From an uncultured delta proteobacterium (GTDB taxonomy: Bacteria > Desulfobacterota > Syntrophia > Syntrophales > Smithellaceae): a stretch of DNA of 64,000 bases. A model generated the notes under the pieces. That model was not told the DNA's origin. It saw only the letters and a program-made list of their open reading frames with translations, and made no database searches. Numbering within the stretch: position 1 is the stretch's first letter; each line of letters opens with the position of its first letter. Shown here piece by piece: positions 10,308 through 48,825 of the stretch. Both the position numbers and the translations under genes were made by a program. Where the stretch lies: contig CAIVQG010000035.1 of the NCBI GenBank assembly GCA_903907985.1, positions 1 through 64,000 on the forward strand, written 5' to 3'.

Positions 10308-10473
10308 ATCTCCTGCTGAAGAATTATAACATCAACGTATATAAATCATTCAACACCCAGCAGATACTTTGCCGCAAAACCTAGTACAGAATAATTTATT
10401 ACACACTTATTGTAAAGAAATTTTTGAATTAGCTGAAAAAGAAAATCGAGCAATATATCAGGAGGAGGAACAA

Positions 10474-12850: not shown

Positions 12851-12980
12851 TAAGGCATGAAGTTTGTGTATAAAATACCACTGCAAACAAAGCGCCCACC
12901 CCCACCCACTCATTTTGTAATCGAGAGGGCGGAGCTTTATAAATCAATCATTTGTTCAGTAAAAAATACTTTTTATCATT

Positions 12981-13112: not shown

Positions 13113-13151
13113 ATCGTCCGCACTTTAATTTTGGCATATTTGGATCGAACA

Positions 13152-14748: not shown

Positions 14749-14791
14749 CATACAAATAACTTTATAGAATGAAATTTTCGGGGAAAGAATT

Positions 14792-15559: not shown

Positions 15560-15575
15560 ACAGGAGGTCATTCAA

Positions 15576-16742: not shown

Positions 16743-16753
16743 GGGACTGTGAC

Positions 16754-17800: not shown

Positions 17801-17831
17801 ACAAATCTTGCATTATCCATGGTAACCGCCT

Positions 17832-28931: not shown

Positions 28932-29873
28932 ATGTCTGCACTATCGAAGAAATCGAAAATATATGTTGCCGGTCATCGCGGTTTAGTTGGCGCCGCCATT
29001 TTGCGGCACTTAATCAGCAATGGATTTAACAATGTCATTGTAAGGACAAGAGCTGAACTGGATTTGACTTCCAGAACAGATGTCTGGAGTTTCTTTAACG
29101 ATGAGCGCCCGGAATATGTTATCCTTGCTGCGGCAAAAGTAGGTGGAATTGCCGCAAACATGTCTGAACCGGTAGAATTTTTAGTTAGCAATTTGGAAAT
29201 ACAGAATAATATTTTATTGGCTTGTCATAAATTTCTTACCACTAAGACAATGTTTCTTGGTAGTTCATGTGTTTACCCCCGAGAAGCACCGCAACCAATG
29301 CATGAGAGTGATTTTATGAGCGGCCCATTTGAACCAACGAATGAATCTTACGCAATTGCCAAAATTGCGGGCATTCGCCTTGCGCAGGCGCTTCGTCAAC
29401 AATATGGACTTAATGTGATTTGCCCGATTCCTTGCAATGTATATGGTCCAGGCGATCATTTTGAATTTGAACGCTCACATGTTGTATCTGCCTTGGTGAG
29501 ACGTTTTATAGAAGCTAAGAGGAATGATTCCCCAATAGTGACTCTATGGGGTACAGGGAACGCCCGTAGAGAATTATTACATGTGGATGATTTGGCAGAT
29601 GCGTGTCTATTTTTATTACAGAACTATGATTCACCAGAGATCATTAATACAGGTTCTGGGTATGATCTGACCATTCGCGAACTGGCTGAAACAATATCAG
29701 ATATTGTGGAATATAAAGGTAGGCTGGATTGGGACATAATGAAACCAGATGGAATGCCACGAAAATTATTGGATATTGATAGGCTAAATAAACTCGGCTG
29801 GCAGCATAAAATTGATTTAGAAACAGGTATCAGATCAGTTGTGCAAGATTTTGAATCAATCTATCCTCAATAG
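28932..29873 (+). CDS. GDP-L-fucose synthase / GDP-L-colitose synthase family SDR
   Basis: A 313-residue SDR of the Fcl/WcaG/ColC group, which epimerises at C3/C5 or C5 and reduces C4 of a GDP-4-keto-6-deoxysugar. Signatures: 'VAGHRGLVGAAI', 'LAAAKVGGIAANMSEP', 'LGSSCVYP', 'EPTNESYAIAKIAGI' (YxxxK) and 'NVYGPGDHFE'. Because the next gene is ColD-like, GDP-L-colitose synthesis (ColC role) is at least as likely as GDP-L-fucose. No gmd or manC is present in the window. Confidence 0.85.
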   Translation: MSALSKKSKIYVAGHRGLVGAAILRHLISNGFNNVIVRTRAELDLTSRTDVWSFFNDERPEYVILAAAKVGGIAANMSEPVEFLVSNLEIQNNILLACHKFLTTKTMFLGSSCVYPREAPQPMHESDFMSGPFEPTNESYAIAKIAGIRLAQALRQQYGLNVICPIPCNVYGPGDHFEFERSHVVSALVRRFIEAKRNDSPIVTLWGTGNARRELLHVDDLADACLFLLQNYDSPEIINTGSGYDLTIRELAETISDIVEYKGRLDWDIMKPDGMPRKLLDIDRLNKLGWQHKIDLETGIRSVVQDFESIYPQ

Positions 29874-31266: not shown

Positions 31267-33243
31267 ATGATCACACTTAAAATATTGGGTGGCCTCGGGA
31301 ATCAACTCTCCGCTTTTGCCTGCGGATACAGTGTCGCCAAAAGGCTGAATCAGGAACTTGTGCTGGATGTAGCGGATTATTACAACGGCTACACCCACGC
31401 TTATGCGCTGGACGCCTTAAATATTCAGGTCTGCAGAAAACTGACCTATACACATGCCTCAGAAAAAATGTTGACCTCGGAGGTCATTCCGGCTCAACTA
31501 AAAAAAAAGTTTGATATTATTGTTGACGAGTCAGATGGCATTAAAACCAGAGATGCCTTGATGAATCAAATCAATCATCACCAAAATATATACCTTAATG
31601 GATACTGGGGCAACTACGATTATTTTTCCGATTATGAAGACGATATCCGTCTCATGTTCACACCACTTAGAAAATCTGACGAGTATCGTCTTTTTTTAGA
31701 TACTATTCGGGGACAATGCAGCGTCGCCGTTCATCTGCGCAGGACTGATTTTGTCGCTCTCGGAAACGTTTGCAGTGACGACTACTATAAAGCAGCCATC
31801 ACCTACATACAATCCATTCATCCTGATGCTGTATTCTATTTTTTTTCCGATGATATAGATTACGCAAAACAAAAGTTTGGCAATAAAGCTCACTTCCGAT
31901 ACATCCAAATATTTGGCGGCATGGATGCCAATCTTGATGAATTCTTTTGCATTTCAGCATGTAATCACAGAATTCTTCACTATGGCAGCAGTTTCAGCCA
32001 CTGGGCTAGTTTTCTGAATAATTTCCCTGAAAAAATTGATGTCATTTATGCCTCAAAAGACGCAACCAGACCCAAAGGTTTTGTTTGCCTGAATGATCAG
32101 GAGATCAGTGAATTGAAGACGAATTTTAATCCGCAGCCTCGATTTACCGTCCACAACAATATGGAGGCCAGAATATGTATCGAAAACCTACTTTCGCAGG
32201 GACAATACAAAACTGTCCTTAATATAATAAATGAAATTAGTATGGACGCCTATTCCGTCACACGTTCCGATTGCATCAATTTCCTGGCAGACAAAGCGAT
32301 CGCCAGTACACAAACGGACAATCTTATTACAGCGGAACAATGCCTGCACAAGCAGGCTCAATATTCTCAAGATGACGAAAATTTCCAGGCAAACTGCTTT
32401 GTTGTGTTAAGCGCACTTGGCAAAAAAATGGAAAGTGCCATCCATGCAGCCAGATGTGCAAGCCTTACACAAAACGCAGAGATGCGCAACAAACTGGATC
32501 ATTACTTTATAAATGACTCTCCAGAGCAACACATATACAACTTGGTGCGATATACCCCTAAAAAACACTTTATTATCGCACCAAATACATCCTGGTCCTA
32601 TTATATTAAAGCACCTCAATCCATTGCTGTATTATTAAGAAAGATGGGACATTCTGTGTCATATATTTATCCGCCGTCCGTCAATAATATCGACCCCACC
32701 CCAACTCCAGAGCACATCGTCAACGCATGTCTGACGGGCAAAATCGGCTGCGACAACCTTTATTCCTACGGCTTTGATTTATATCCATCAATCATAAACA
32801 ATACGTCAGGGAAAATGGTTTCTTTTGTGGAACCTCTGAGCGAACATTTGTGCCGAACCGGCTCCGATACAGCGGTGGTTTTGTTTCGTAATCCTCACTT
32901 GGTTGCCGGAAAGAGGGAAAGGACCTATGCAAAATTTATCTACTGGGATTTTCAGGATGCATTGGACAGTGAAAACGTTTGTATCAAAATATGGAATGAA
33001 AACATTCGGGAGTATATGTGCCGTGCGGCGGATCATGCAGTTATTATGGATTGGGACTTTTACACAAGAACACAGAAAGATTGGCAACTGAAAAATATCT
33101 CATTGTTCCAGTATCCGGGTACCAACGAATCGAGCAATTATAAATACATCCAGGAGCGTATCCCTTATACGCCAAACTATTTGGCCGACGATCGAACGAT
33201 AGCATTGGCTGCACTTATACTTGAGCTCTCCGATGTAAAGTAG
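31267..33243 (+). CDS. GT11 fucosyltransferase-like protein with a ~360-residue unassigned C-terminal part
   Basis: A 658-residue protein. Residues 1-270 match GT11 (alpha-1,2-fucosyltransferase family): 'LGGLGNQLSAFACGY' at the start, the GDP-sugar-binding 'VHLRRTDF' (about 155-162) and 'LHYGSSFSHWASF'. This would transfer L-fucose or a relative such as colitose from GDP, matching the two preceding genes. Residues about 295-420 are helical and TPR-like. Residues about 430-658 ('FIIAPNTSWSYYIKAP', 'VSFVEPLSEHLCRTGSD') resemble nothing I recognise and might be a second Rossmann-type transferase. Confidence 0.8.
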   Translation: MITLKILGGLGNQLSAFACGYSVAKRLNQELVLDVADYYNGYTHAYALDALNIQVCRKLTYTHASEKMLTSEVIPAQLKKKFDIIVDESDGIKTRDALMNQINHHQNIYLNGYWGNYDYFSDYEDDIRLMFTPLRKSDEYRLFLDTIRGQCSVAVHLRRTDFVALGNVCSDDYYKAAITYIQSIHPDAVFYFFSDDIDYAKQKFGNKAHFRYIQIFGGMDANLDEFFCISACNHRILHYGSSFSHWASFLNNFPEKIDVIYASKDATRPKGFVCLNDQEISELKTNFNPQPRFTVHNNMEARICIENLLSQGQYKTVLNIINEISMDAYSVTRSDCINFLADKAIASTQTDNLITAEQCLHKQAQYSQDDENFQANCFVVLSALGKKMESAIHAARCASLTQNAEMRNKLDHYFINDSPEQHIYNLVRYTPKKHFIIAPNTSWSYYIKAPQSIAVLLRKMGHSVSYIYPPSVNNIDPTPTPEHIVNACLTGKIGCDNLYSYGFDLYPSIINNTSGKMVSFVEPLSEHLCRTGSDTAVVLFRNPHLVAGKRERTYAKFIYWDFQDALDSENVCIKIWNENIREYMCRAADHAVIMDWDFYTRTQKDWQLKNISLFQYPGTNESSNYKYIQERIPYTPNYLADDRTIALAALILELSDVK

Positions 33244-33427: not shown

Positions 33428-36400
33428 ATGAAAAATTCAGACTTTTTAAAATACTTGCACCTAGTGGTTGACATGAAAATAAATAAATATTCTCAATTGG
33501 GAGAAGAACTTATTTTATTAAAGATATTTGAAAACATTGGAACGACCAACAAGTATTTGGTTGATTTTGGCGCCGGCGATGGTGAGATCTTAAGTAATAG
33601 CAATTTGCTTATTGAGGAACATGGTTTCAATGGCTTGCTGATGGACGTTGATAATAAAGACAATCAGAAAGTAAAAAAAGAAATTATCACTGCTGAAAAC
33701 ATTTGTGCTTTGTTCAAAAAACATAATGTACCAAAAACTTTTGATCTACTTTGCATTGATATAGACGGCAATGATTATTATGTACTTAAGGCTATTATCA
33801 GAGGCGGTTATCGTCCGCGAGTTATTTTAACAAAGTTTAACGACTGTATTCCAAACGGAGTTGACAAATATATAAACTATAACGCAAATCATGTTTATGA
33901 CAATACTGACTATTACGGTTATTCTTATACTACTGGACTGAGACTTGCTAAAGAATTAGATTATGTCGTTGTTTGTGAAAACGGTAAAACCAATTTAGTT
34001 ATGATAGACAAAAACGAAAACTTGGATTGGAGTAAAATTGAACTGCCTGTTTTTTCACATCAACAATATCATAAACATAAGCCTGATGGCGAATGGATAA
34101 TCCATCAAAGACAGGCGCTAAACAACGATAAAAAGTTTCTCAGTCTTGAGCCCGTCAAGTCAGACAGTGGTTCGCTTTCTTTATCTTTTCTCGAAAGGAT
34201 TGTGTATCTCTTTCATGCTGATGTTTTTGTCGAAACCGGCACAAATTTCGGGGCCACAACAGCGGAAGCGGCAAAAGTATTTCGGGAAGTGCACACTATC
34301 GAACTTGGCCATGAATTATTTCAAAAGGCAACTAAGCGTTTCGAAAATAACGACAACATCCATGTGTACCATGGAGATTCATCTGTGGTACTGAAAGATC
34401 TCTTACCCCATATTCAGGGGAAAACCGTATTTTGGCTCGATGGTCATTATAGTGGTGGAGAGACCGCACGTGGCAATGAAAATACACCTATTATGAAAGA
34501 GATTCAATTAATACGGCAGCACAACATAAAGGATGCAATCATCCTTATTGATGATATCCGTATTTTCTGCAAAAATCCCAATCCTGCTTCCATTGTTTAC
34601 GGTTATCCGACACTTCGCGAACTGTTTTCCGCCATCCTTACAATTGACCACACGTATTGCTTTGAAATAATAGGTGACGTAGCAATCGCTTATCCATCAA
34701 ACGATGGTATTCAAGTATCATCAGTCATCCGGGGATGCACAATTAGCCGGTTCTATGATGAAAATCCGGAATTAGGCTATTCGATCCTTGAGGCTGAGCA
34801 GAATATTTCTTATGCTACTGGGTTGGAGCAGAAAGCAATTAGCCAGTTGTGTAACCAATTCGGTTTATCTAACTTCGAAGATCAGAGCAGGTACTATGCA
34901 CTTTGGTCCGGACTGATCCTATATCACAATAAAAAATATGTAGCGGCGATTCAATTATTTACGATGCTACTTTCACGCGGTTTCAATCATTGGCGGATCC
35001 AATGGTACCTCGCCCGTGCAGCATATGAATCCGGTAATTTGCCTATTGCACAAACTTCTCTTTTTGTTGTTCTAAACACACAACCGGATTTTCAGGATGC
35101 TCATGAACTGATGGACAAGATCAAAATCGACACAGCCAGGTGGAATACTATAACTACCAGTGAAGCCAGCCATCAGAAAAAGATTTTGTTTTACTGTGGA
35201 ATTAACAACTTGGTAAATTTCAGTCGGATTCGTCCGTATTATGATCTGTGTTATGGTTTTGATGCCAATCCCGAAAAAGTGGAGTATGCAAAAAAAATAT
35301 ATCACAATGATCCAGGAGTAAAAATTATCTATGGCGCACTGACGGAAAAAAGTGGTGAAGAAATTGAATTTACAATAACCACAAATTGGGATCCAGCATC
35401 TTCGCTTGGTAGTCCAAATCCTGAGTATCGTCCCAATGCAAAAAATCCCGATATGCTCGCTGCTCAGACAATCATCAAGGTACCTACAATAAGTCTCTAC
35501 GATTTTTGTATCAAAAATAATATTTCGCAAATCGATACCCTTTTAACCGATTTACAGGGTATCGATTTTACCGTGCTCAAAACGCTCATAATATTTATCC
35601 AAGCCTGCAAAATAAGGGAAATTCAGTGTGAAGTGGAACCCGACAATACTCCGACGCGCTATTTGGGAATACCGCCCGGCAAACTTAAAGACTTCAACAA
35701 ACTTCTATCCGAAAACTATGATGTCTTATGGATGGACCCTCCGGGGCCACCACAGGGCGCGTGGGAAATGGATGTCCGCTGGAGAGTCAAAAATACCGCA
35801 CCAGACGATCATGTTGACTTTGTCGTTGAAAATGAATTACTTGTTCCGCTCGTTAAAAGTTTTCTAATCAACTTTGTCAACGGACACCAACAAAAGGAAA
35901 TAACGATCAATCACAAGGGAAATGTGTCCGTCATCTGGTCGGCAAATCCAATTGACGGATGTGATGTATATGTTTACCACAACTCCTTCAGTTATCAAGG
36001 CAAAAGGGGCGGCGTAGACTTTTTAATGATGCTAGAACCTGCTGTTGTTCTGCCGGGCGAATTTGACGATCAGGTATGGAAACATTTTGATCACGTTTTC
36101 GGATTATTCGACGCCCTCCCCGCCCGGGGCACCAGATTTCATAAGATTTTTTTTCCAAGGGCAGATTTGGCGGGTGTCAATCCCATAACCGAAGCACAAA
36201 GCCTGCGTGAATCACGTTATCCATTATCAGGACGCAAGAAGGCCATCTGCATGATTGGCAGTAATAGAAGTTCCCATGTCCCGTACGAACTCTATTCAAA
36301 GCGCATTGAGGTCGCCCGCTGGTTTGCAGAACATTCCAAAATGCCCTTTGACGTTTACGGAACTCCTTTTGCTCTGCCCAATTACCGTGGGCCATGCCCG

Positions 36401-39400
36401 GTATCGCAGAAGTTATCCATGTTAAAACAATATCGATACAATCTCTGTTTTGAAAACACCAATGATCCTGTGCTTTCGGCCGGTTACGTTACGGAGAAAA
36501 TCCTTGATTGCCTGGAAACTAGAACCATCCCGATTTATCTGGGAGCATCCAACATAGAACAATATATTCCGCCTGAATGCTTTATTGACCTCCGGAATTT
36601 CGCTGATTATCAGGCATTGGACACATACATCCGTTCCGTCTCGGAGGCGAAATATCAAAGCTATATCAACCATATCGATAAATTTGTATGTTCGGGCGGA
36701 TTGAGGATGTTTTCGGAAACAGCGCTTTATCATCAGATCATTCAGACATTAATTGATGAAAAATCGCTAGATGCCAGATATTATGAAAATGACATTTTCT
36801 GGCAGTCGGGACCTTCATCAGCTGTACGAAAGAACGAATGGTCATCGACAATCACACCGGCAATGTGGACTTGGAAGCATTTGTCGAAAGCGAATCCACC
36901 CTTGCTGGAAAACGGAAAAATAGTCGACCAGCGGCCAAGCGACCAACACCTCACAGAGGCAAACGCCAAACACACTGCCAAATCATTTCTGATCGGGAAG
37001 AAACCATCAATCAAGGTGCTCGTCGCAGGCAGTAAATTTTCTTCCGGTAACGCGCGGCGAGGATATGACTATGTATGGTGGAACATTTTCGATGCGCTGA
37101 ACCACTTCGAAAATATCGAAACTAATTTTTTTGATTACGCCACGGAGGCGCAGCAACGTGGCGTTGCGGGCATGTCGGAGAGTCTTGAAGAAATCGTTCG
37201 CAAAGAAAATCCCGATTTGATTTTTTACAGTCCTGCTGACCGGAACGCGGGTATTCTTCGTGAAAGCTTAACGTCTATAGCTGATCACACAGACACGCGA
37301 ACCGTCATCTGGATGAATAATCATCAAGGGCATGTTAAAGAGGAGACAAACCTCTGGGCGTCATGTGCCAATTACATCATTACACTTTCACCAGAATCCG
37401 CAGGGTATTTTGCAGCAGCAGGTTTCGGCTCCAAAGTCATTGAGAGCCAATGGGGTTTTAATCCTTATACATATAACACATCATGCTTCAGACTCAGGGA
37501 GATCAGCTTTTGCGGCACCGCAAAAGGTAATCGTTCAGAAATTCTGGAGCAAATAAAGCAGAATGGCTTATCTGTCGATGTTTTCGGATCAGGCTGGCAC
37601 GAAGACTCATTCATTCCCTTTTACGATATGGTAAGGATTTTTGTTCAATCCAGGATTAACCTGAACCTCAGTGGCACATCTGAACTTACGACCAACCAAA
37701 TCAACAGGAGGACTTTTGAAGTGCCTGGGAGTCGTGGGTTCCTCCTTACAATGCCTGCCGACCATTTGGAAGATTACTATGAATCTGGTAAGGAAGTAGT
37801 TGTCGCTTCCTCGCTGGAAGAACTGATTGACAAAGCAAAGCATTATCTTGCCCATGAGCGGGAACGGGAAAAGGTTGCACAGCGCGGGCATGAACGAACC
37901 ATTGCCGAGCACACCTGGTCGAATCGCTTTATCGATATCTTTAAGCATATCGGGTTTACGGCCATACCCCAAAAACTGCCGACCATAAGCGGAACATCAC
38001 ATTTCAAACAATCCTCTCCGCAAAGTATGCCTGTCTCCGTAAAACATTCTGATCCTGAGAACTCCGCGGAAAAGCCAGTGGACTGTGATTACGAGAATAT
38101 TGAAACGAGTATTTTTATGATGGCATACAATAAGTTACAGTATACAAAACAGTGCGTCGAGAGTATTCTGCATTACACAAAAGGCAATTACGAGCTTCTG
38201 CTTACTGACAATGGCTCGACAGATGGAACATATGAGTATTTTGAATGGGTAAAGAGCTTTCACCCCCGTACGCGGGTCATAAAGAATTTTGCGAACCGGA
38301 TTGCAGAGTCCCTCGGCAATCATGGATATTCACTCGCACGCGGGAAATACGTTGCAGGTATCGCAAACGACGCCGTAGTACACGAGGGTTGGGTTAATAA
38401 CTTCATAGCACAAATTGAATCTGCGCCTGACATAGGAATTGTCGGGTCACGTTCCAACAGTATAAGTGGTCCCCAAGTGGCGCAGGTAGACTATAATACT
38501 TTAGAAGCTTACCATGCTTTTGCTGCTGAATGGTGTAAACAGTATAAGGGATCTAATTTCGCCATCCAACGAGTAGTTCCAATGGCAGCTATATTTAAAA
38601 AAACAATCTTAGAACGTATTGGATTTCTTGATCCTGATCTTCCAACCAACGGCAGGGATGGCGGATATGGGTTCAGTGATGACGATCTTACCTTGCGATT
38701 ACGCATGGGAGGATACAGATCCCTTGTTGCCAATGATGTGTTTATTCATCACTATGGCAGTGTAACTGCAAAACAGGATCGTCCTGATCTCTTCGGCGCT
38801 CCCCAAAATATCAACAAAGAAAAGTATATAAGGAAAATTAGAAATAATAACAGGATCATCATAGGAGCTGATGGTCAAATGACTATAAAACCTTACAGTC
38901 TGCATGATGTTATTCCGATTGATGAAAGAACGGCAATACGAACTCCGCGAATATGTTTCGTTGAGACAAACGACACTATTTCAAAGAAAACCGACGCCGA
39001 AAGCCTTTACGCTGCCGTCGCCCGAAAATATAACGGAGAAAATATCCAGAGTCAGAGCGAATCGATTCAATCCCTGATCCTGAAAATCCTTGATGACAAG
39101 CAATATGATTTTCTGGTTCTGATCGATTCTCGCCTCGCCCCTCCTCCGGAAATCATCTCGGCTCTTGCCGAATCCTCTCTGTGTTATCCGGATGTCGCGG
39201 TCATGGTTCCGGTTGGAAACTATGCGCCAGCCACCCACACACATAAAACAGATTTGGCACAAGAAGTTGAAATAATCCCTTATGCGGATTTGTCCCTGTG
39301 TTCGATCAATCTCAAAATCGTACGGCCCTTACTCCCGGGACTGGCCCGATGTGAAAATGACAATGAATTGATCTGGTTTATGCAACGGCGCATCCGGGGA

Positions 39401-42400
39401 GAAAGTTATTATATCGCCAAAGCAAACAATATTGAAGTAAATTGCAGTGTGCCGATAATTGCACATCCTTACGATACACAGACACTTCCGGAAAAACTGA
39501 TAAAAGAGAAAAAATATACGGAAGCTATTGCGGTTTACCAGAGCGATCTGCTGAAAGACCCGAACTTTGCCGAAGCCTACTATCACCTTGCCTGCATTGC
39601 CAGAGAACAACGACAGAAAGAAGAAGCAATAAAGAGGGCACAACAAGCGCTAGCGGTAGATCCGCATCACATTGAGTCTTTGATTTTCCTGTCCAGACTC
39701 TTTATGGATCAAAACAAATGGGAAAAAGCGGAATCTTTTATACGTCAGGCCAACCTTAAGCAGTCGGGACATCCGGACGTTTTGCAGATCGTGGCACAGT
39801 ATGAAAAAGTCGTGAAAGAAAATCCCGGCCTTTTACAGACCGAAGAATCTCACATAATCCCAGATTTGACAAATCCTGAATATGTTAAAGGCAGGACGTC
39901 CATCATCATCGCGGCATCTTCAAATCACGCACGCGAATGCCTCGCCGCTATTAAAAAACATACCCCTGAGCCTTATGAGCTGATTGTGATCGACGCGCTT
40001 GCCACTGCCGATTTGAAAAAGAAGCTGAAAAAAAGCGTTAAAGAGCACAGTCCCTATAAAATTCTGGAACATCAAACCAAAAAATCTTTATTGCAGTCCA
40101 TCAACCAGGGCATTAACAGTTCCACAGGTGAATATATTGTTCTGCTGAGCAATGATACTCTCGTTTCTGAAGACTGGCTGACCGGAATGCTCACATGTCT
40201 TAATTACGCACCTGCAGCCGGCGTTATCGCCCCTATGACAAACAAAGGCACCGGTCCCCAGCACGTAACGGACGAGTCTTATCAATCGGTTAATCATCTC
40301 GATAAATTTGCGGCAGAGTTTAAAGAGCGGTTTCATCACCGCCGGATTCCCTGCCGGAACATTGCCAGATTCTGCATGTTGTTCAAACGAACACTCGCAG
40401 AAAAGATCGGTCTATTCGATGAACGTTTCGATACCAGACAGTTTGAAGATGAAGATTTCTGCTGGAGGTCTGCCTTGGCCGGCTATCAAAATTACATCGC
40501 CGGCGATGTTTTTATCCACCATCACAGAAGCAAAGAACCTCAAGGCGACAGAACAATCCTCGATAAAAAATGGACACTCAGCCTGGACAGCTCCGAAGGC
40601 AAGAAGCTGGCAGTTATAAAAGCGATGGAATTCGCTGATATTTTATATTCACGAGGGGAAACAGATCGAGCCGTTGAAGCCCTCGTCAATTGTATTACAT
40701 TTACGCCTGACACTAAGGAGATTTATTATGAACTATCCCGCATTTTTATTGAATCTAAGAAATTTTCCGAAACGTTGGAAGTTGTCGGTACCATGCCTGA
40801 AGCGGCGAAAAATGATCTGAAGGGTCTGGAATGCGCTGGTTACGCCAAGGAAGGTTTAGGGCTGGATGATGAAGCGGCTGCATATGCGGACAAGATGTTG
40901 TCTCAGAATGAAAAATACCCGGCGGCGCTGAATCTGAAAGGAGTTTTGGCATATAAAAAAGATGACAAAGAAAAGGCGGTGGAGTATTTCCGTAAGGCAA
41001 TAGATGCTGATCCGGGTTACGGAGATGCATATACAAACCTTGGCGTTCTCTACTGGGGCATGGATAAAAAAGATGAAGCACTGGCGCATCTGCATAAGGG
41101 CTTTGTCCTGTCCCCGACAACACCTGATAATAGTTCGATTTACTATTCGGTTTTATCTTCTTCGGGACTGCATGGTGAGGCAGAAGCCGACTTTCGTGAA
41201 GCCTGCAGATCATATCCCCGTCATAAAATACTTGCTTTTTTATATATTGATATTCTCATCTCGCAAGGCAAGTTTGATATCGCAATGCTCAGGATAGAAG
41301 ACACAATCGCTTTGTTTGGCCTGGATGAAGGCATTCTGAACGCAGCTCTGTCTGTCCGCGAAAAAATCGGTCCTCTGCAAATTGATAAATCGTCAAATAA
41401 AGGAACACTATCCATTTGCATGATTGTGAAAAACGAAGAAAAATTCCTTGTTAAATGTTTAAGAAGCATACGGGATGTTGTGGATGAAATAATTATTGTG
41501 GATACCGGATCAACGGACAAAACCACTGATATCGCCAAAGCCTTCGGGGCTAAATTGTTTGACTTTCCCTGGACAGGTGATTTTTCAGCAGCTCGCAATC
41601 ATTCGCTTGCCCAGGCAACAGGTGACTGGATTTTCATTCTTGATGCCGATGAGGTGATTTCATCACTTGACTTTGATGAGTTGAAAACGATAGTTCACAA
41701 GCGACCTTCAACGGCAGTCACCTATAACATTCTGACAAGAAACTATATAGATCAGGAAAGCATCATTGGCTGGACCCCCAATGACGGGAAATATCCCGAT
41801 GAATCACATAACGGATGGATGCCCAGCGCAAAAGTGAGGCTTTTCACCAGAAGAAAAGATATCTTTTTTACCAATCCGGTTCACGAGTTGTTGGAAACTT
41901 CAGTAAGAAAGGCAAAAATACCCATTTTACCAGGCAATGTCGTTGTGCATCACTATGGCAAATTAGACGTGGCAAGGGATACGCAAAAAGGCGAGGATTA
42001 TTATCTGCTGGGGAAAATAAAGTATGAAAACGATCCAACAAACGTGAAATACATTCATGAACTGGCGAAACAGGCTCAAGTGCTTCATAAAAATGAAGAA
42101 GCAATGGAATTGTGGCTGAAGCTTCTCTCGCTTATAGATGCCGACCATCAATCACCGGCTTATCAGGAAATTGCCCGCATTTCATATGGTGATCCGATAT
42201 CAGAAACATATACACTGCTTGCAGGATCTTACATGGCTCTCAATCGCTATGATGAGGCATTAGCATCAGCGCGCAAAGCGATGGAGACAGAGGTAAAACG
42301 CAAAGAATATGTTAATGTTTACGCAGAGTGTGAAATTATCGCCGGCTCAATGGAGAAAGCGTTTTCCGCACTGGAAGAACAACTTAAAATAATGCCTGAT

Positions 42401-42661
42401 TACTCGATTGCGTTGATCTTGATGGCGGTTATTTCCTGTTTGAAAGGGGAAAAAGAAAGAACACAAGATTTATTCCAGTTATTGCAGCAGAAACATACTG
42501 AAATAACATTCCATTTAAACATAATTGCCAGAAGACTCAATAATTACGGGAAGAAGGATGAAGCCTTGCTTATCCTCAATGCGATGATTGAAAACAAGAT
42601 AAGCAATCAAGAAACAATGAGGCTTGTTGGTGTTATACAAAATAGCAGGAGCAGTGCGTGA
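33428..42661 (+). CDS. Giant multidomain methyltransferase-glycosyltransferase-TPR protein
   Basis: One uninterrupted frame of ~3,077 residues. The ATG at 33428 follows CGGAAGGA. Approximate order: FkbM-like methyltransferase (19-200, 'YLVDFGAGDGE'); second SAM-type domain (260-430, 'VFVETGTNFGATTAEA'); TPR (490-560); FkbM-like domain (585-790); GT10 fucosyltransferase fold (810-1100, 'NLCFENTND', 'GYVTEKILDCLE', 'PIYLGASNI'); CgeB-like GT (1195-1510); GT2 (1557-1785, 'LTDNGSTDGT'); degenerate transferase-like region (1835-2010); TPR (2018-2125); GT2 (2156-2370, 'LLSNDTLVSEDW'); TPR (2400-2600); GT2 (2660-2845, 'IVDTGSTDKT', 'ILDADE'); TPR (2860-3074). No signal peptide or membrane segment is evident. 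It ends 115 nt before flaF, on the opposite strand, near flagellin. Flagellin glycosylation is the leading inference. Confidence 0.88.
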   Translation: MKNSDFLKYLHLVVDMKINKYSQLGEELILLKIFENIGTTNKYLVDFGAGDGEILSNSNLLIEEHGFNGLLMDVDNKDNQKVKKEIITAENICALFKKHNVPKTFDLLCIDIDGNDYYVLKAIIRGGYRPRVILTKFNDCIPNGVDKYINYNANHVYDNTDYYGYSYTTGLRLAKELDYVVVCENGKTNLVMIDKNENLDWSKIELPVFSHQQYHKHKPDGEWIIHQRQALNNDKKFLSLEPVKSDSGSLSLSFLERIVYLFHADVFVETGTNFGATTAEAAKVFREVHTIELGHELFQKATKRFENNDNIHVYHGDSSVVLKDLLPHIQGKTVFWLDGHYSGGETARGNENTPIMKEIQLIRQHNIKDAIILIDDIRIFCKNPNPASIVYGYPTLRELFSAILTIDHTYCFEIIGDVAIAYPSNDGIQVSSVIRGCTISRFYDENPELGYSILEAEQNISYATGLEQKAISQLCNQFGLSNFEDQSRYYALWSGLILYHNKKYVAAIQLFTMLLSRGFNHWRIQWYLARAAYESGNLPIAQTSLFVVLNTQPDFQDAHELMDKIKIDTARWNTITTSEASHQKKILFYCGINNLVNFSRIRPYYDLCYGFDANPEKVEYAKKIYHNDPGVKIIYGALTEKSGEEIEFTITTNWDPASSLGSPNPEYRPNAKNPDMLAAQTIIKVPTISLYDFCIKNNISQIDTLLTDLQGIDFTVLKTLIIFIQACKIREIQCEVEPDNTPTRYLGIPPGKLKDFNKLLSENYDVLWMDPPGPPQGAWEMDVRWRVKNTAPDDHVDFVVENELLVPLVKSFLINFVNGHQQKEITINHKGNVSVIWSANPIDGCDVYVYHNSFSYQGKRGGVDFLMMLEPAVVLPGEFDDQVWKHFDHVFGLFDALPARGTRFHKIFFPRADLAGVNPITEAQSLRESRYPLSGRKKAICMIGSNRSSHVPYELYSKRIEVARWFAEHSKMPFDVYGTPFALPNYRGPCPVSQKLSMLKQYRYNLCFENTNDPVLSAGYVTEKILDCLETRTIPIYLGASNIEQYIPPECFIDLRNFADYQALDTYIRSVSEAKYQSYINHIDKFVCSGGLRMFSETALYHQIIQTLIDEKSLDARYYENDIFWQSGPSSAVRKNEWSSTITPAMWTWKHLSKANPPLLENGKIVDQRPSDQHLTEANAKHTAKSFLIGKKPSIKVLVAGSKFSSGNARRGYDYVWWNIFDALNHFENIETNFFDYATEAQQRGVAGMSESLEEIVRKENPDLIFYSPADRNAGILRESLTSIADHTDTRTVIWMNNHQGHVKEETNLWASCANYIITLSPESAGYFAAAGFGSKVIESQWGFNPYTYNTSCFRLREISFCGTAKGNRSEILEQIKQNGLSVDVFGSGWHEDSFIPFYDMVRIFVQSRINLNLSGTSELTTNQINRRTFEVPGSRGFLLTMPADHLEDYYESGKEVVVASSLEELIDKAKHYLAHEREREKVAQRGHERTIAEHTWSNRFIDIFKHIGFTAIPQKLPTISGTSHFKQSSPQSMPVSVKHSDPENSAEKPVDCDYENIETSIFMMAYNKLQYTKQCVESILHYTKGNYELLLTDNGSTDGTYEYFEWVKSFHPRTRVIKNFANRIAESLGNHGYSLARGKYVAGIANDAVVHEGWVNNFIAQIESAPDIGIVGSRSNSISGPQVAQVDYNTLEAYHAFAAEWCKQYKGSNFAIQRVVPMAAIFKKTILERIGFLDPDLPTNGRDGGYGFSDDDLTLRLRMGGYRSLVANDVFIHHYGSVTAKQDRPDLFGAPQNINKEKYIRKIRNNNRIIIGADGQMTIKPYSLHDVIPIDERTAIRTPRICFVETNDTISKKTDAESLYAAVARKYNGENIQSQSESIQSLILKILDDKQYDFLVLIDSRLAPPPEIISALAESSLCYPDVAVMVPVGNYAPATHTHKTDLAQEVEIIPYADLSLCSINLKIVRPLLPGLARCENDNELIWFMQRRIRGESYYIAKANNIEVNCSVPIIAHPYDTQTLPEKLIKEKKYTEAIAVYQSDLLKDPNFAEAYYHLACIAREQRQKEEAIKRAQQALAVDPHHIESLIFLSRLFMDQNKWEKAESFIRQANLKQSGHPDVLQIVAQYEKVVKENPGLLQTEESHIIPDLTNPEYVKGRTSIIIAASSNHARECLAAIKKHTPEPYELIVIDALATADLKKKLKKSVKEHSPYKILEHQTKKSLLQSINQGINSSTGEYIVLLSNDTLVSEDWLTGMLTCLNYAPAAGVIAPMTNKGTGPQHVTDESYQSVNHLDKFAAEFKERFHHRRIPCRNIARFCMLFKRTLAEKIGLFDERFDTRQFEDEDFCWRSALAGYQNYIAGDVFIHHHRSKEPQGDRTILDKKWTLSLDSSEGKKLAVIKAMEFADILYSRGETDRAVEALVNCITFTPDTKEIYYELSRIFIESKKFSETLEVVGTMPEAAKNDLKGLECAGYAKEGLGLDDEAAAYADKMLSQNEKYPAALNLKGVLAYKKDDKEKAVEYFRKAIDADPGYGDAYTNLGVLYWGMDKKDEALAHLHKGFVLSPTTPDNSSIYYSVLSSSGLHGEAEADFREACRSYPRHKILAFLYIDILISQGKFDIAMLRIEDTIALFGLDEGILNAALSVREKIGPLQIDKSSNKGTLSICMIVKNEEKFLVKCLRSIRDVVDEIIIVDTGSTDKTTDIAKAFGAKLFDFPWTGDFSAARNHSLAQATGDWIFILDADEVISSLDFDELKTIVHKRPSTAVTYNILTRNYIDQESIIGWTPNDGKYPDESHNGWMPSAKVRLFTRRKDIFFTNPVHELLETSVRKAKIPILPGNVVVHHYGKLDVARDTQKGEDYYLLGKIKYENDPTNVKYIHELAKQAQVLHKNEEAMELWLKLLSLIDADHQSPAYQEIARISYGDPISETYTLLAGSYMALNRYDEALASARKAMETEVKRKEYVNVYAECEIIAGSMEKAFSALEEQLKIMPDYSIALILMAVISCLKGEKERTQDLFQLLQQKHTEITFHLNIIARRLNNYGKKDEALLILNAMIENKISNQETMRLVGVIQNSRSSA

Positions 42662-42710: not shown

Positions 42711-42752
42711 AACCCGCCGGGTCAGGTGACCCCGGCGGGTTTTTTGTTTTTT
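42711..42752. terminator. Bidirectional intrinsic terminator between the giant gene and flaF
   Basis: AACCCGCCGGGTCA pairs with TGACCCCGGCGGGTT (one bulged G) around a 2-nt GG loop at 42711-42741. A T-run follows on the plus strand and an A-run precedes it, so it can stop transcription from both convergent genes. Confidence 0.9.
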
Positions 42753-42775: not shown

Positions 42776-43225
42776 TCAAACACTAAAGCTTGTTGCAAAA
42801 TGGTTCTTTTGCGGTTTTGGTAATGCCTGCCCCACCACCTGTTCGTTGTTGCTGGGGTTTTGGCTTAGACCAGCGGCGATGTTGAGATTAATATCGATGA
42901 GGATATTGAGCTTCTCCGGGGCCGGATACGCCAGAACCTCAAAGATTCTTTTATCGACAAAGATACTCAAGTTGAGAATATCCTCTTTGATTTGTCTAGG
43001 GAGGGGATTGTCCTCTTTGATCAACTCACTCTGTAATATACTCCAGATATTCTGATTGTTCATGAGAGCCTCTTGGAGCTGGAGATCCCGGTCCGCCGCG
43101 TTCCAGTTTTTCTGGCATTCTTTGATCTTGAATGCAGCCTGCATAAGCGCGCCTGCCTCGATCTCCCGTCCGGACATATACAACTTCTGGGTTGTTTTGT
43201 ATGCTTCAAGTTGGTTTGCGGACAC
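42776..43225 (-). CDS. flaF: Flagellar biosynthesis regulator FlaF
   Basis: A 149-residue FlaF homologue. The N-terminal ~120 residues carry the family pattern ('QLEAYKTTQKLYMSGREIEA', 'KNWNAADRDLQLQEAL', 'LNLSIFVDKRIFEVL'). The last ~30 residues are an Asn/Pro/Gln-rich tail. In alphaproteobacteria FlaF promotes flagellin translation or secretion, opposing FlbT. It overlaps flbT by 20 nt, so the two are coupled. Confidence 0.85.
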   Translation of the reverse strand: MSANQLEAYKTTQKLYMSGREIEAGALMQAAFKIKECQKNWNAADRDLQLQEALMNNQNIWSILQSELIKEDNPLPRQIKEDILNLSIFVDKRIFEVLAYPAPEKLNILIDINLNIAAGLSQNPSNNEQVVGQALPKPQKNHFATSFSV

Positions 43226-43604
43226 GATCTAGTACCTCCCGTTCATATTCTATCAGTTTCCTGGCCGATTTCAGTGCCTGATAATACTCGCTCTTGAGTA
43301 TATGTTCACTGATCTTGTCGACATGAATGAGCGTGCTGGGCACTGCACCTACAAGATCTTTGACCAGTGACCAGTAAGTGTTATGATATCCGACAATATT
43401 TCCGGCATCAATGTACATGAGTTGAATTACAAAATATATTCTGCTGCAATAGGTCGTTGCTTCCTCCTCGCGCATGATGTCTTTTTCACGAAGCACCGCA
43501 ACATTGTTTTCCACAACAAATTCGGAACGGTTTTTCCCGTTCTGTATTACCGCACCACCGATGATCAGTTTCTCCTGTGGTTTAAGCGCTATTTTCAGGG
43601 CCAT
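43206..43604 (-). CDS. flbT: Flagellin mRNA regulator FlbT
   Basis: A 132-residue FlbT homologue. It begins 'MALKIALKPQEKLIIGGAVI' and has the conserved 'KNRSEFVVENNVAVLREKDIM' segment, then a helical half. FlbT binds the flagellin 5' leader and limits its translation in Caulobacter. Its gene lies downstream of flagellin with flaF, the same trio as in alphaproteobacteria. Confidence 0.88.
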   Translation of the reverse strand: MALKIALKPQEKLIIGGAVIQNGKNRSEFVVENNVAVLREKDIMREEEATTYCSRIYFVIQLMYIDAGNIVGYHNTYWSLVKDLVGAVPSTLIHVDKISEHILKSEYYQALKSARKLIEYEREVLDRVRKPT

Positions 43605-43611: not shown

Positions 43612-43959
43612 TCAGATCTTTACGGTCAGAATTGCACCCGGTTGAATATTTCCCGACGCCGCCGCTCTGACCGTTTCCGTTGCGTCGCTTTTCGATTTAT
43701 TGTCTAAGTTCGTATTTTGGAATTCCTGCTCGGCTCCGGAGCGCTTAAACTCTGTTCCTCCTATACTGACTTTTTTGATGAGATCCTGTCTTTGGTACGT
43801 TGCTATGGGGAAAAAAGGCGGGTCATAGACATCTACCAGGTTGGACTGCCCCAAGCTTACAGAAGCAACCTCTCTGTTATCACCGTCTTCCTTACTCCCT
43901 CCGTCAGGGCGAAACGCATTCTGCAGCCCCTGATATGGATTAATATTATTGACATTCAT
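43612..43959 (-). CDS. Hypothetical protein in the flagellin operon
   Basis: A 115-residue protein of unknown family between flagellin and flbT. It opens 'MNVNNINPYQGLQNAF', a start like those of FlaG and other small flagellar proteins. It is rich in Asn, Gly, Ser and Asp, with no membrane segment or signal peptide. The start lies 72 nt after the flagellin stop and the stop 7 nt before flbT, so it belongs to the operon. Confidence 0.6.
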   Translation of the reverse strand: MNVNNINPYQGLQNAFRPDGGSKEDGDNREVASVSLGQSNLVDVYDPPFFPIATYQRQDLIKKVSIGGTEFKRSGAEQEFQNTNLDNKSKSDATETVRAAASGNIQPGAILTVKI

Positions 43960-44030: not shown

Positions 44031-45482
44031 TTACTGGAACAATCTCAGAACTGACTGGGCTGCCTGCGCCGAGAGGCTCAGAGCCGTGGTGGCCAGAGAC
44101 TGACGGGTCTGCAGCATCAGCATGTTGGCGCCTTCTTCATTGGTATCGGCCAGTGTCAGGGCATCCGAACCTGCATTCAGAGTGTTAATCATGTTCGTCG
44201 AAAATTGCTGACGAACGGTGATAATGCTCAAGTTGCCGGACAGTTTGGACGCTTCCGTACGCATAGTAGATGAAGCAGTATCCAGCGCTGTCGTGGAGGT
44301 GTCAACCGAACCGCCTGTGACCCATGTTGCATCCGCAACGCCGAGGTCGCTTGCTTTCGCACTGAATCCTACCACAGACAGTGTGGTGCCTTCGAACTTA
44401 ACGGTCATAGTGTCTGCGTTCAGAAGGTTTTTGCCCTTATACCCGGAGTCTAACGCCAACTTATCCATCTGGAAAAGCAAATCGTTAAACTGGGTTTGTA
44501 AACTCTTCAGGTCGGAAGCTGTTGTCTGAGAGAGAGCCGCCGTGATTCCTGTTGTGGGAGCCGTGTACATGGCAGTCGTAATATCATATTTCGCCCTCGA
44601 CACCGTCACCACCCCGCTTTCTGCAGTTGCTGAATAGCCCAAGCCAGACAAGGTAGTGTTGGCGGTGATAAGCGCCTTCAGAGTAGTAGCGGTATCTGCA
44701 GCAGTAGCACTAGCTTTGTAATAGTTAGTAGCGGATGTCGCTGCTTTTGCCGCACTATAAACTGACGTCAGCGCTACGCCACCTAACGTCAGTACGGCGC
44801 CGAGTGCCTCAGCAGTTGCAGTTATTGTAGAAGCAGTTGAGACTTTAGTAATTGCGGCAATGTTTGCTTGCTCACCTGCACTATCTGTATTGTTGACACT
44901 TATAAGAGTCGTGCCGGTTGTAAGAGCCACAGTATAACCAGTAAAGTTTGCTGCGATTGCAGTCTTCAGATTAAGGGCGTCAGTAGTAGCGACACCTGTG
45001 ACATAAAACTGAACACTCGTCATGCCAGCAGTCGTGCTTACGCCGGTCAGCGTCGTGGAACCAACCGTAACAGTTTCACCCGCTGTCATACTTGCGGATA
45101 TGCCTATGGTTGCACTCGAAGCGTTGCCGCCTGCTATGGTGGCCGCTGGTGTTAAAGTAACTTTAATGCCACTGGCGCTCGAAGCAGATTGCGCAATACC
45201 TTTAGCTTGCTCAATCATCGTACTGATCGCCGTTATACCTTTGTCGGCGGCGGTGATCGTCTGAACGGCCTGGCCCATCGCATCCTTCAAACTATCGATA
45301 ACAGCCGCACGAGCGTTCAATGCCTGGGACGCAAAATATGATACCGGGTTGTCCATTGCTGTGTTAACTTTTTTGCCTGTAGAAAGGCGGTTTTGCGTGC
45401 GGTCTAAAAGACTTACTGTGGTTTGAAGAGATAAAAGGTTGTTTCTCATTCCCGAGGTTAAACTGATATCATTAATAGCCAT
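44031..45482 (-). CDS. fliC: Flagellin
   Basis: A 483-residue flagellin. The conserved N-terminus ('LLSLQTTVSLLDRTQNRLST', 'NPVSYFASQALN') and C-terminus ('EEGANMLMLQTRQSLATTAL', ending 'AAQSVLRLFQ') form the D0/D1 core. The middle (about 105-330) is very rich in Thr, Ala and Ser, low in charged residues, and is the exposed part where O-linked glycans attach in other flagellins. AAGGAG precedes the ATG. It is transcribed from the sigma-28 promoter at 45627-45653, with a leader of about 138 nt. Confidence 0.95.
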   Translation of the reverse strand: MAINDISLTSGMRNNLLSLQTTVSLLDRTQNRLSTGKKVNTAMDNPVSYFASQALNARAAVIDSLKDAMGQAVQTITAADKGITAISTMIEQAKGIAQSASSASGIKVTLTPAATIAGGNASSATIGISASMTAGETVTVGSTTLTGVSTTAGMTSVQFYVTGVATTDALNLKTAIAANFTGYTVALTTGTTLISVNNTDSAGEQANIAAITKVSTASTITATAEALGAVLTLGGVALTSVYSAAKAATSATNYYKASATAADTATTLKALITANTTLSGLGYSATAESGVVTVSRAKYDITTAMYTAPTTGITAALSQTTASDLKSLQTQFNDLLFQMDKLALDSGYKGKNLLNADTMTVKFEGTTLSVVGFSAKASDLGVADATWVTGGSVDTSTTALDTASSTMRTEASKLSGNLSIITVRQQFSTNMINTLNAGSDALTLADTNEEGANMLMLQTRQSLATTALSLSAQAAQSVLRLFQ

Positions 45483-46352: not shown

Positions 46353-46439
46353 ACCCCATGCGTCGGGATCTCGCCATAATTCGCTGAGACCGTCAGTCTT
46401 GCAGTCAGCCTTTATCTTTCCACCTATTGCCATTTTTCC

Positions 46440-46467
46440 TCAAGTTTTATCCGACCAATACCGATAA
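46440..46467 (+). promoter_or_regulatory. Possible sigma-28 promoter for the TPR protein gene
   Basis: ACCGATAA (46460-46467) is an almost perfect FliA -10 box. Sixteen nt upstream lies TCAA (46440-46443), a 3-of-4 match to TAAA. The gene start is 32 nt downstream. The -35 is weak. Confidence 0.45.
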
Positions 46468-46498
46468 TTTAAATAGATCATATCAGATGAGGTTATTG

Positions 46499-47707
46499 AT
46501 GAGTTCATCATTGGGAGTTGCCAATTCAACATACATAGATTATTTATTTGCTGCCAACACAACTCATTCGCAGGCACAACTGGATTCTCTGGCTAATAAT
46601 GCCTTGTCGCGGGGAATAGATTTTTTCCAGAATGGTAATTATGACCAAGCCATTAAGGAATTTAAAACATCTGCCGGCCTGGCGCCCTTTACCGATAATT
46701 CCGCTAAAGCCTATAATTACATAGCTCAAGCCTATCTGAATCTGGAAAAAACAGATCAGGCAATTGCAACTTATAAACAAGCTCTTCAGATATATCCGGT
46801 GCGCGATGATTTGCATCTGGCTCTGGGTGATATTTACGCGCAAGAAGGCAATCAGGAGGAAGCCCAGAAAGAATATGAAGCGGCTGTACGATTTAATCCG
46901 AATTCAGCCGATAATAGATATTCGCTCGGTCAGAGTTATCTCGGCGCCGGTCAGTACAGTGCTGCCCAAGAGCAATTTCAAGCTGTCACCAAGCTGTTAC
47001 CCAACAGCGTCTCCGGCTACTATGGTTTAGGACAGGTGGCACGGGCGTCAGGAGACTATCCGGACGCGATTGCCCAATTGAACAAAGCCATTGGCGTGGA
47101 TAAAAATTTTGTAAATTCTTACCTGGAACTGGGATATACATACGCTGATATGGGCAATGATCAGAAGGCGAAAGAACAATTACTCATTCTGACGACAAAA
47201 GGATCTTCGTCAGCTACAACCCTTCAAAATTACATGTCCCAGGTGTCACAACCAAAAATACGTTTTGCTCTTGGTCTTGATGGATTCAATAATTATTTTG
47301 GACCGAAAACAAAAATTGCTACAATGGATGAAGATCTGGCAGCGCCCAACAGCACAAAACTTTATTCCATGAATTTTGTTTTTTCCAAAGACATGGATAT
47401 TGCATCTGTCCAGAACCGTTATAACTGGGGTATCAACAGAGCATCCATCACACAAAACGGCGGCGTTTATAATGGAGGATTTACCGTACCGAAAACAGAA
47501 GCGAACATTCTTCCCATCCCTGTGAATGTTACTTATGATGCCGATAAAAATACGGCCTCTGTCCGATTTCGAATTTCTCAGAATGCCGCCGGCAACGCCA
47601 CCCTGGACCCGGCACATATCGTTTTCAAATTCTACGGCCAGGATGCCTATGGCAAAGCCATGGATAAATCCGCCGATGAATACAGCGGTTTTTCCAGCAT
47701 AGCGTAA
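46499..47707 (+). CDS. TPR protein with C-terminal Ig-like (SbsA-type) domain
   Basis: A 402-residue protein. The ATG at 46499 has GAGG upstream; longer frames lack a site and would start inside the probable promoter. Residues about 25-230 are five to six TPR units ('ALSRGIDFFQNGNYDQAIKE', 'SYLELGYTYADMGNDQKAKE'). Residues about 255-400 form a beta-rich domain with 'SMNFVFSKDMD', the pattern of bacterial Ig-like SbsA domains. No signal peptide is clear. The 3' three quarters are part of an exact-length tandem duplication. A late flagellar role is suggested only by location and promoter. Confidence 0.75.
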   Translation: MSSSLGVANSTYIDYLFAANTTHSQAQLDSLANNALSRGIDFFQNGNYDQAIKEFKTSAGLAPFTDNSAKAYNYIAQAYLNLEKTDQAIATYKQALQIYPVRDDLHLALGDIYAQEGNQEEAQKEYEAAVRFNPNSADNRYSLGQSYLGAGQYSAAQEQFQAVTKLLPNSVSGYYGLGQVARASGDYPDAIAQLNKAIGVDKNFVNSYLELGYTYADMGNDQKAKEQLLILTTKGSSSATTLQNYMSQVSQPKIRFALGLDGFNNYFGPKTKIATMDEDLAAPNSTKLYSMNFVFSKDMDIASVQNRYNWGINRASITQNGGVYNGGFTVPKTEANILPIPVNVTYDADKNTASVRFRISQNAAGNATLDPAHIVFKFYGQDAYGKAMDKSADEYSGFSSIA

Positions 47708-47964
47708 CTATAAAATTAATTCATCTGCTATGAAGTCGTAAAAAGTCAAAAACCAATAGAATCGTCGTCCCGGCGCAGGCCGGGAACCAGAAAACTGAAT
47801 AAATTAACTGGATTCCGTATCAAGTCCGGAATGACATAACAATGGTTTCCCGACTTTTTACTGTCTCCTCAGTTTCCGTGCTATTTTTCTTCCTTCTTTT
47901 GACTGCCGTCATCAGATTTCTGATCTTTTTCCGGAGCGCTTTGGTCAATATCTTTCCTGTGGAT
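46847..47964 (+). repeat. Tandem duplication unit 1 (1,118 bp)
   Basis: This unit starts at GGCAAT in the TPR gene and runs through its 3' end, a palindromic intergenic repeat (about 47764-47836) and a copy of the csrA 3' end, to the GGCAAT that opens unit 2. Units 1 and 2 have the same length to the base. They differ by scattered substitutions, most at their 5' ends, and are nearly identical from about 47590 on. Confidence 0.92.
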
Positions 47965-48825
47965 GGCAATGAATCTGAAGCCCTGTCAGAATATGAAGCA
48001 GCTGTGCGATTGAATTCGAATTCAGCTGAGAATAGATATTCTCTGGGACAGAGCTATCTCAGTTCCGGTCAGTTCAGTGCTGCTCGCGAGCAGTTTCAAG
48101 CAATCGTCAAGCTTTCGCCTAACGGCGCTTCCGGCTACTATGGTTTAGGACAGGTGGCGCGGGCATCAGGAGACTATCCGGATGCAATTGCCCAATTGAA
48201 CAAAGCCATTAGCATGGATAAAACATTTGTAAATTCTTACCTGGAACTGGGATATACCTACGCTGATATGGGCAATGATCAGAATGCGAACGAACAATTA
48301 CTCATTCTGACAGCAAAAAAATCTGCGTCAGCTACAACACTTCAAAATTACATGTCTGAGGTCTCACAACCACGAATAAATTTTGCTCTTGGTCTTGATG
48401 GATTCAATAACTATTTAGGACCGAAAACAAAAATTGCGGAAATGGATGCAGATCTAACAGAGCCCAACAGCACAAAACTTTATTCTATGAACTTTGTTTT
48501 TTCCAAAAACATGGATATTTCATCTATACAGAACCGTTATAACTGGGGTATCAACAGAGCATCCATCACGCAAAACGGCGGTGTTTATAATGGAGGATTT
48601 ACTGTACCGAAAACAGAAGCAAACATTCTTCCCATCCCGGTAAATGTTACTTATGATACCGATAAAAATACAGCCATTGTCCGATTCCGGCTTACTCAAA
48701 ATGATACCGGCAACGCCACCCTGGACCCGGCACATATCGTTTTCAAATTCTACGGCCAGGATGCCTATGGCAAAGCCATGGATAAATCCGCCGATGAATA
48801 CAGTGGTTTTTCCAACATAGCGTAA
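47842..48825 (+). CDS. Chimeric truncated TPR-Ig ORF with an antisense-csrA-derived hydrophobic N-terminus
   Basis: A 327-codon open frame created by the tandem duplication. Residues 1-43 ('[20 protein letters not shown]'...) are the reverse strand of a duplicated csrA 3' end. From 'ESEALSEYEAAVRLNSNSAE' onward it is the TPR plus Ig-like part of the neighbour (the first ~117 residues are absent). By chance the antisense part is a strongly hydrophobic segment resembling a signal anchor. There is no good ribosome site or promoter before the ATG, so expression is uncertain. The frame of the copied part is intact. Confidence 0.5.
   Translation: MVSRLFTVSSVSVLFFFLLLTAVIRFLIFFRSALVNIFPVDGNESEALSEYEAAVRLNSNSAENRYSLGQSYLSSGQFSAAREQFQAIVKLSPNGASGYYGLGQVARASGDYPDAIAQLNKAISMDKTFVNSYLELGYTYADMGNDQNANEQLLILTAKKSASATTLQNYMSEVSQPRINFALGLDGFNNYLGPKTKIAEMDADLTEPNSTKLYSMNFVFSKNMDISSIQNRYNWGINRASITQNGGVYNGGFTVPKTEANILPIPVNVTYDTDKNTAIVRFRLTQNDTGNATLDPAHIVFKFYGQDAYGKAMDKSADEYSGFSNIA
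47881..47970 (-). pseudogene. Duplicated 3' end of csrA
   Basis: On the minus strand the stretch reads '[17 protein letters not shown]' then 'KSDDGSQKKEEK' and a stop. It matches the last ~30 residues of intact csrA at 48999-49205. It lacks the whole RNA-binding core and has no start. It was copied by the 1,118-bp duplication. Confidence 0.85.

Follow-up and report, generated by a model that had tools for sequence, protein, structure and literature searches.

A giant multidomain protein encoded beside flagellin in a Smithellaceae genome is probably an enlarged GmaR-type flagellin O-glycosyltransferase

In a 64,000-nucleotide stretch of DNA from an uncultured member of the Smithellaceae (the window), the gene at 33428-42661 (+) encodes a single chain of 3,077 residues that combines glycosyltransferase (GT), methyltransferase and TPR domains. 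We consider it likely that this protein is a GmaR-type cytoplasmic flagellin O-glycosyltransferase, enlarged by domain accretion, which extends and methylates its glycan within one chain. It probably both puts a sugar chain on flagellin and extends it before export. The frame is uninterrupted, with zero stops, and a strong Shine-Dalgarno sequence (AAGGAAAACAAATG) precedes the ATG at 33428; the TTG at 33392 is a possible start but a less likely one, as the ribosome-binding site favours the ATG. An assembly chimera or fusion of neighbouring genes is ruled out by the presence of giant single frames (2,081 to 3,623 aa) in independent assemblies, which indicates that the 3,077-aa frame is not an assembly accident, and is also contradicted by short proteins that occupy the same position beside flagellin (the slot) and have the same C-terminus. 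The stop-free frame and the comparable giants bear out the original prediction of one open frame of 3,077 residues.

Pfam searches with the full-length protein and with ten segments of it gave the domain order MT1, MT2, TPR, FkbM, GT10, CgeB-like, GT2a, an unassigned stretch, TPR, GT2-A, TPR, GT2-B and TPR from the N- to the C-terminus, all on the + strand. MT1, an FkbM-like methyltransferase (residues ~21-196; 33488-34015), gives a weak Pfam match (E=0.0055) and carries the motif VDFGAGDGE; it has a homologue at 34% identity in a same-family genome, and its GC content is 0.32, compared to 0.40-0.46 in the rest of the gene. MT2, a class I methyltransferase (residues ~262-418; 34211-34681; E=1e-3 to 1e-4), carries the motif VETGTNFGATT, and its homologues include free-standing proteins of 202 and 216 aa (38-42% identity). 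Both lie under the Pfam cut-offs, and both have plain SAM motifs and close homologues that are small separate proteins elsewhere. After TPR block 1 (residues ~485-575; 34880-35152) comes an FkbM methyltransferase (residues 609-740, 3e-8; 35165-35800), a module that the homologue in G002 also carries N-terminally (36%). The GT10 domain is of the alpha-1,3-fucosyltransferase type (residues 935-1082, 4e-18; 35858-36907), and its segment matches the alpha-1,3-fucosyltransferase FucT of H. pylori (2.7e-12), aligned through the NLCFENT..GYVTEKI motif; in L033 and L034 the GT10 module is near the N-terminus, nearer the chassis defined below. A CgeB-like Glyco_trans_1_2 domain, representing a GT-B half (residues 1369-1504, 3e-32; 37532-37939), lies within a full module at ~36908-38062. 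It is followed by GT2a (residues 1561-1691, 3e-20; 38102-38797), a polysaccharide-type domain with intact catalytic motifs, whose best PDB match is chondroitin synthase and which does not match GmaR. The next 235 residues (1791-2025; 38798-39502) match no Pfam family and give no confident AlphaFold fold (pLDDT about 30-50), and their sequence pattern suggests that they are possibly a decayed GT-A domain.

Beyond TPR block 2 (residues 2026-2140; 39503-39847) lie the C-terminal ~920 residues, comprising GT2-A, TPR, GT2-B and TPR, to which we refer as the chassis. The catalytic motifs of GT2-A (residues 2169-2327, 1e-14; 39905-40594) are degenerate in the window gene, with IDALATAD in place of VDNGSTDG, so GT2a and GT2-B are the only GT2 domains that look active from their motifs. 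TPR block 3 (residues 2390-2648; 40595-41371; Pfam and AlphaFold model) is followed by GT2-B, assigned as a GmaR-type protein glycosyltransferase from Pfam (residues 2662-2773, 2e-23), motifs and model (41390-41992). The C-terminal ~215 residues are TPR block 4 (residues 2850-3070; 41993-42637), recognised by Pfam over 2860-3060 and with model helices from ~2848. The domain count originally proposed, namely three methyltransferase-like domains, a GT10, a CgeB-like transferase, three GT2 domains and at least four TPR blocks, is right by Pfam in that all domains are present, but MT1 and MT2 are weak and GT2-A has lost its catalytic motifs.

Compared with solved structures, GT2-B matches GmaR first (phmmer 2e-31 to 22ao, 198 residues) and SunS/ThuS next, and it has DTGSTD, DADE, HE and HYG motifs in common with GmaR. 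Within the family, the DTGSTD-type, DADE, HE and HHYG-type motifs are intact in all 17 sequences that cover the domain; GT2-A is decayed in five. When modelled with AlphaFold (mean pLDDT 86.4, pTM 0.73), the chassis has SunS as its best match over GT2-B and the following TPRs (Z 22.7, 279 residues, 4.2 A), in a Foldseek/VIA structure search that used the whole chassis as query, a design that cannot rank every domain. The window protein has these features of a GmaR-type enzyme: a GmaR-homologous GT2 with conserved motifs, a TPR C-terminal to that GT2, and genetic linkage to flagellin. We see no MptE-like Maf domain (PF01973) in the protein, its segments or the whole genome, using a model that picks up the Maf-like protein of G026, and GT41 (PF13844) is absent from the matches of the protein and its segments, while present in the alternative slot occupant L166. 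The FlmG layout of an N-terminal TPR and a C-terminal GT-B is also different, as the catalytic core here is a GT2 (GT-A) at the C-terminal end. An analogy with OGT and FlmG had been drawn at the outset; it holds for a TPR-bearing glycosyltransferase tied to flagellin, but GmaR is the closer relative, with OGT and FlmG both being GT-B enzymes.

The gene ends ~1,370 bp from flagellin, and the adjacency noted in the original prediction stands with the correction that the genes are convergent, with flaF, flbT and a short frame between them. Terminator-like hairpins on both strands, at 42711-42741, separate the convergent genes. They are followed, all on the - strand, by flaF (42776-43225; PF07309, 9e-30), flbT (43206-43604; PF07378, 4e-43), a small frame in the flaG position (43612-43959) related to same-place frames in four other loci (L022, L029, L171, L172), and a 483-aa flagellin (44031-45482). 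This flagellin is the probable acceptor; S and T make up 29% of its central region. The window genome has one flagellin plus FlgL, and Maf is absent. Beyond flagellin lie two TPR proteins, a very large FlgL, FlgK, FlgN and flg basal-body genes. The TPR proteins (46427-47707 and 47842-48825, +) are tandem copies that share a conserved C-terminal domain; in the second a hydrophobic start has appeared and the N-terminal repeats are lost, and in several relatives one copy adjoins flagellin. They were considered as additional glycosyltransferases and rejected, as Pfam finds no GT domain in them. The FlgL-like protein (49226-52399, -) is longer, at 1,057 aa, than its relatives (728-923 aa); between its flagellin-type ends it has internal inserts that recur, around YTGTxxKxY and ISxDGG.

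Upstream, from 11 to 33 kb, lies a sugar island. It holds genes for CDP-glucose 4,6-dehydratase (RfbG) and glucose-1-phosphate cytidylyltransferase (RfbF), both above the equivalog cut-off (13654-15559, +), an RfbH/PseC-like aminotransferase, a NeuB-like nonulosonate synthase (25393-26310, +) and a GDP-L-fucose synthase-like enzyme (28932-29873, +; 2.5e-123; 411 bits, short of an equivalog cut-off of 500 bits), whose predicted activity is consistent with donor supply for GT10. Radical SAM/SPASM proteins and methyltransferases are also encoded; at 16706-19942 (+) three tandem radical SAM/SPASM paralogues are followed by a B12-binding radical SAM gene. Just upstream of the giant gene lies a separate 658-aa GT11-like protein of the fucosyltransferase family (31267-33243, +; Pfam), the C-terminal ~400 residues of which match no Pfam family. 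Because this island with its separate GT11-like gene adjoins, it is doubtful that the giant protein builds the whole glycan alone. The original proposal that one polypeptide builds and methylates an entire glycan is unsupported in view of the GT11-like, NeuB-like, CDP- and GDP-fucose-type, methyltransferase and radical SAM genes upstream, and is further weakened by the one dead-looking GT2.

The chassis family lies convergent against flaF-flbT-flagellin in 22 distinct genomes, of which 13 came from two initial searches (one of 40 relatives, the other a scan of genome contigs) and 9 from a draw of 297 genomes of the same phylum. Among the 40 relatives, the chassis is 53-67% conserved in same-genus and same-family genomes and the remainder of the protein differs, with homologue lengths of 2,114 (G002), 1,400 (G003) and at least 931 (G006) residues. 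Further proteins with the full chassis came from the contig scan, in records named as deltaproteobacteria, Nitrospirae and others; the complete ones have 1,386 to 3,388 residues. Where enough sequence is available, every full-chassis locus faces flaF-flbT-flagellin except L036 from Geobacter, which has no flagellin within 10 kb and sits in a cluster with sugar genes; in L039, flaF-flbT is 5 kb off. None of ~66 loci with only partial GT2/TPR similarity has this flagellin type nearby. In the 297-genome sample, the module (called above 400 bits) is found in 17 genomes, FlbT in 19 and both in 14 (Fisher p=2e-17), with FlbT present in 14/17 genomes that have the module compared to 5/280 that do not. 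The two are adjacent in 12 of the 14 genomes, and lie 13 kb and 271 kb apart in the others. Flagellin, FlbT and the giant are all absent from the same-genus genome G001. Pairwise distances for GT2-B and for FlaF plus FlbT are correlated (r=0.57, p=1e-4), a pattern that shared species history could also produce, and flagellin length shows no relation to giant length (p=0.91). Overall, the 22 convergent loci and the GmaR-type C-terminal GT2 support the early suggestion of a TPR-glycosyltransferase tied to flagellin. As GmaR-like GT2+TPR proteins are also found in cyanobacteria, in archaea and in G024, where no flagellin was detected, the wider family is not flagellin-specific.

Proteins in the slot span from 402 to 3,623 aa, with their N-terminal modules swapped. 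Minimal GT2-B+TPR forms of 401-402 aa occupy the slot in G084 and G227 (L153, L155), and the longest form is that of L146 (3,623 aa), which carries radical SAM, GT2, GT4 and GT9 modules; these three loci belong to the 12 adjacent cases of the 297-genome sample. Other N-terminal cassettes comprise two class I methyltransferases (G003, L029), two FkbM domains and a GT2 (G002), GT10 (L033, L034, L028), GT2 and a methyltransferase (L036), GT2, GT4 and a capsule-type domain (L035), WbsX, TPR, GT2 and GT4 (L031), or GT2 and GT4 (G028, L141). Modules of the window gene recur elsewhere, with MT2 and TPR block 1 in L091, FkbM in G002, GT10 in L033 and L034, and GT2a in G002 and L028. L091 itself encodes a chassis-less glycosyltransferase giant of 3,743 aa (3122-14350, +) with a weak flagellin-like frame 1.4 kb upstream. 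In L024, two giant frames, one of ~2,079 aa and one of 3,274 aa or more that the contig end cuts, overlap by 4 bp beside flagellin (3260-19320, -). Between flagellin and flbT, both L023 (11432-12361) and L038 (2614-3561) have an additional, divergent flagellin-like frame (310-316 aa).

Some genomes with FlbT lack the chassis, and in these the slot convergent with flaF can hold a different enzyme: a Maf/MptE-like protein with TPR in G026, a GT2-GT4-GT41 protein in G304, and in G064 a TPR with a GT9-like GT-B end, which is the FlmG layout. Alternative occupants of these three types are located at L170 8383-11331 (Maf+TPR), L166 3689-8155 (GT2-GT4-GT41) and L164 7953-9317 (FlmG layout). No recognised protein-glycosyltransferase is seen at the slot in G307, G048, G042, G021, G029, G031, G135 and G236, some of which are represented by short contigs. 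The occurrence of non-homologous enzymes of one function at one position is a strong comparative argument that the slot serves flagellin glycosylation.

From these observations we infer a course of events in which the invariant core, the C-terminal GmaR-type GT2-B flanked by TPR superhelices, would act first. By analogy with homologues, the TPRs would capture flagellin ahead of export and GT2-B would transfer the first sugar to flagellin Ser/Thr in the cytoplasm. The domain architecture suggests that GT2a, GT10 and the CgeB-like GT could then lengthen the sugar on the flagellin molecule so captured, and that the FkbM-type and class I methyltransferase domains may cap the glycan. Donors would come partly from the adjacent island, as CDP-hexose, a GDP-fucose-type sugar and the NeuB product. 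A stronger version makes the protein an assembly-line synthase: GT2-B would initiate, the TPR-captured flagellin would be handed on to the other GT and methyltransferase modules, and the swappable set would write the glycan of each strain's filament. This version we regard as tentative and less likely than not. Additional transferases are encoded in the island, so acceptors other than flagellin are conceivable for some modules.

An unlikely alternative is that only the C-terminal GT2-B and TPR act on flagellin, and that the N-terminal modules serve an LPS or capsule glycan or are passengers of a recombination hotspot. The bare core suffices in G084 and G227, module content varies even inside one genus, MT1 stands out by its GC of 0.32, and GT2-A and residues 1791-2025 look decayed. 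However, across a large evolutionary distance most members keep their extra modules in one frame with the flagellin-linked core; GT10, FkbM, GT2a and CgeB retain recognisable families and motifs; and LPS work would need no fusion, as free genes would be enough. That the whole protein works as a polysaccharide glycosyltransferase for LPS or capsule, and lies near flagellin only incidentally, is very improbable given the 22 convergent flagellin neighbours, the co-occurrence with FlbT (p=2e-17), the GmaR homology and the finding of Maf and GT41 types in the slot elsewhere, even if GT2, GT4, GT10 and GT11 domains with CDP/GDP-sugar genes are typical of polysaccharide loci and L036 lies in a sugar-gene cluster without flagellin. 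The least probable reading is that of a regulator or chaperone, whose TPR scaffold would bind flagellin, FlbT or FlaF and couple glycosylation to flagellin synthesis, comparable to GmaR as an anti-repressor. GmaR is indeed bifunctional (PMC9638930) and the slot adjoins the flagellin regulators FlaF and FlbT, but the catalytic motifs of GT2-B are complete in every member covering the domain. The reading that we favour remains an enlarged GmaR-type glycosyltransferase.

Flagellin glycans are normally made by sets of separate genes, and TPR-containing flagellin glycosyltransferases are already known in GmaR, FlmG and Maf-1. The peptide S-glycosyltransferases SunS and ThuS, which modify a Cys of a bacteriocin, likewise place sugar straight on a peptide, and SunS is the best structural match of GT2-B and its helices, but they have one GT domain. 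GmaR adds GlcNAc to Listeria monocytogenes flagellin, which its TPR is proposed to recognise (PMC9638930), and it resembles the window protein in having a homologous GT2 catalytic domain followed by TPR; unlike GmaR, which has 637 residues, one GT and a C-terminal anti-repressor, the core described here shares its chain with additional GT and methyltransferase modules and with a GT2-A/TPR half. A Clostridium GT2+TPR protein has also been proposed as a flagellin GT (PMC13317340). In C. difficile, CD0240, a GT beside fliC, adds the first GlcNAc, and neighbouring genes later decorate and methylate it (PMC4441256); the likeness is one of description, and steps carried out there by separate genes are here fused domains. 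The TPR domain of FlmG binds flagellin in the FlaF/FlbT flagellin system of Caulobacter (PMC7591256). FlmG and Maf glycosylate flagellin in the cytoplasm by means of a TPR module for the acceptor, as predicted for our protein, and both types use the same slot (Maf in G026, FlmG-like in G064), but neither FlmG (GT-B, one transfer) nor Maf (MptE-like) is its core. Enterobacterial flagellin islands contain GT41-methyltransferase fusions (PMC4875605), which also join a flagellin-linked GT to a methyltransferase domain; their core is, in contrast, GT41 (SPINDLY), and a giant multi-GT chain is not reported there. The chlorovirus enzymes A111/114R and A064R are virus-encoded single-chain multi-GT proteins that build a protein-linked glycan, which A064R also methylates (PMC7826918). 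They likewise have several GT domains in one chain, those of the window protein being predicted, but belong to an unrelated lineage, make an N-glycan on a capsid protein, have no TPR acceptor module noted and are much smaller. In open-licence papers, we found no description of a GmaR-type core with up to 3,600 residues of swappable modules at the flagellin slot, nor anything on the chassis family in the literature on flagellin glycosylation in Desulfobacterota with FlaF. The format was originally thought to be undescribed, and this applies to the giant module-swapping flagellin family within those papers, but not to its parts, which have precedents in GmaR, GT41-methyltransferase fusions and chloroviruses.

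GmaR-type, Maf, GT41 and FlmG-type enzymes have replaced one another at a single position, which offers an easy way to test by comparison how flagellin is chosen by TPR glycosyltransferases. If the assembly-line reading were true, the protein would work in the manner of modular megasynthases, and the glycan code would sit in one modular polypeptide, so that the structure of the glycan could be read from domain content.
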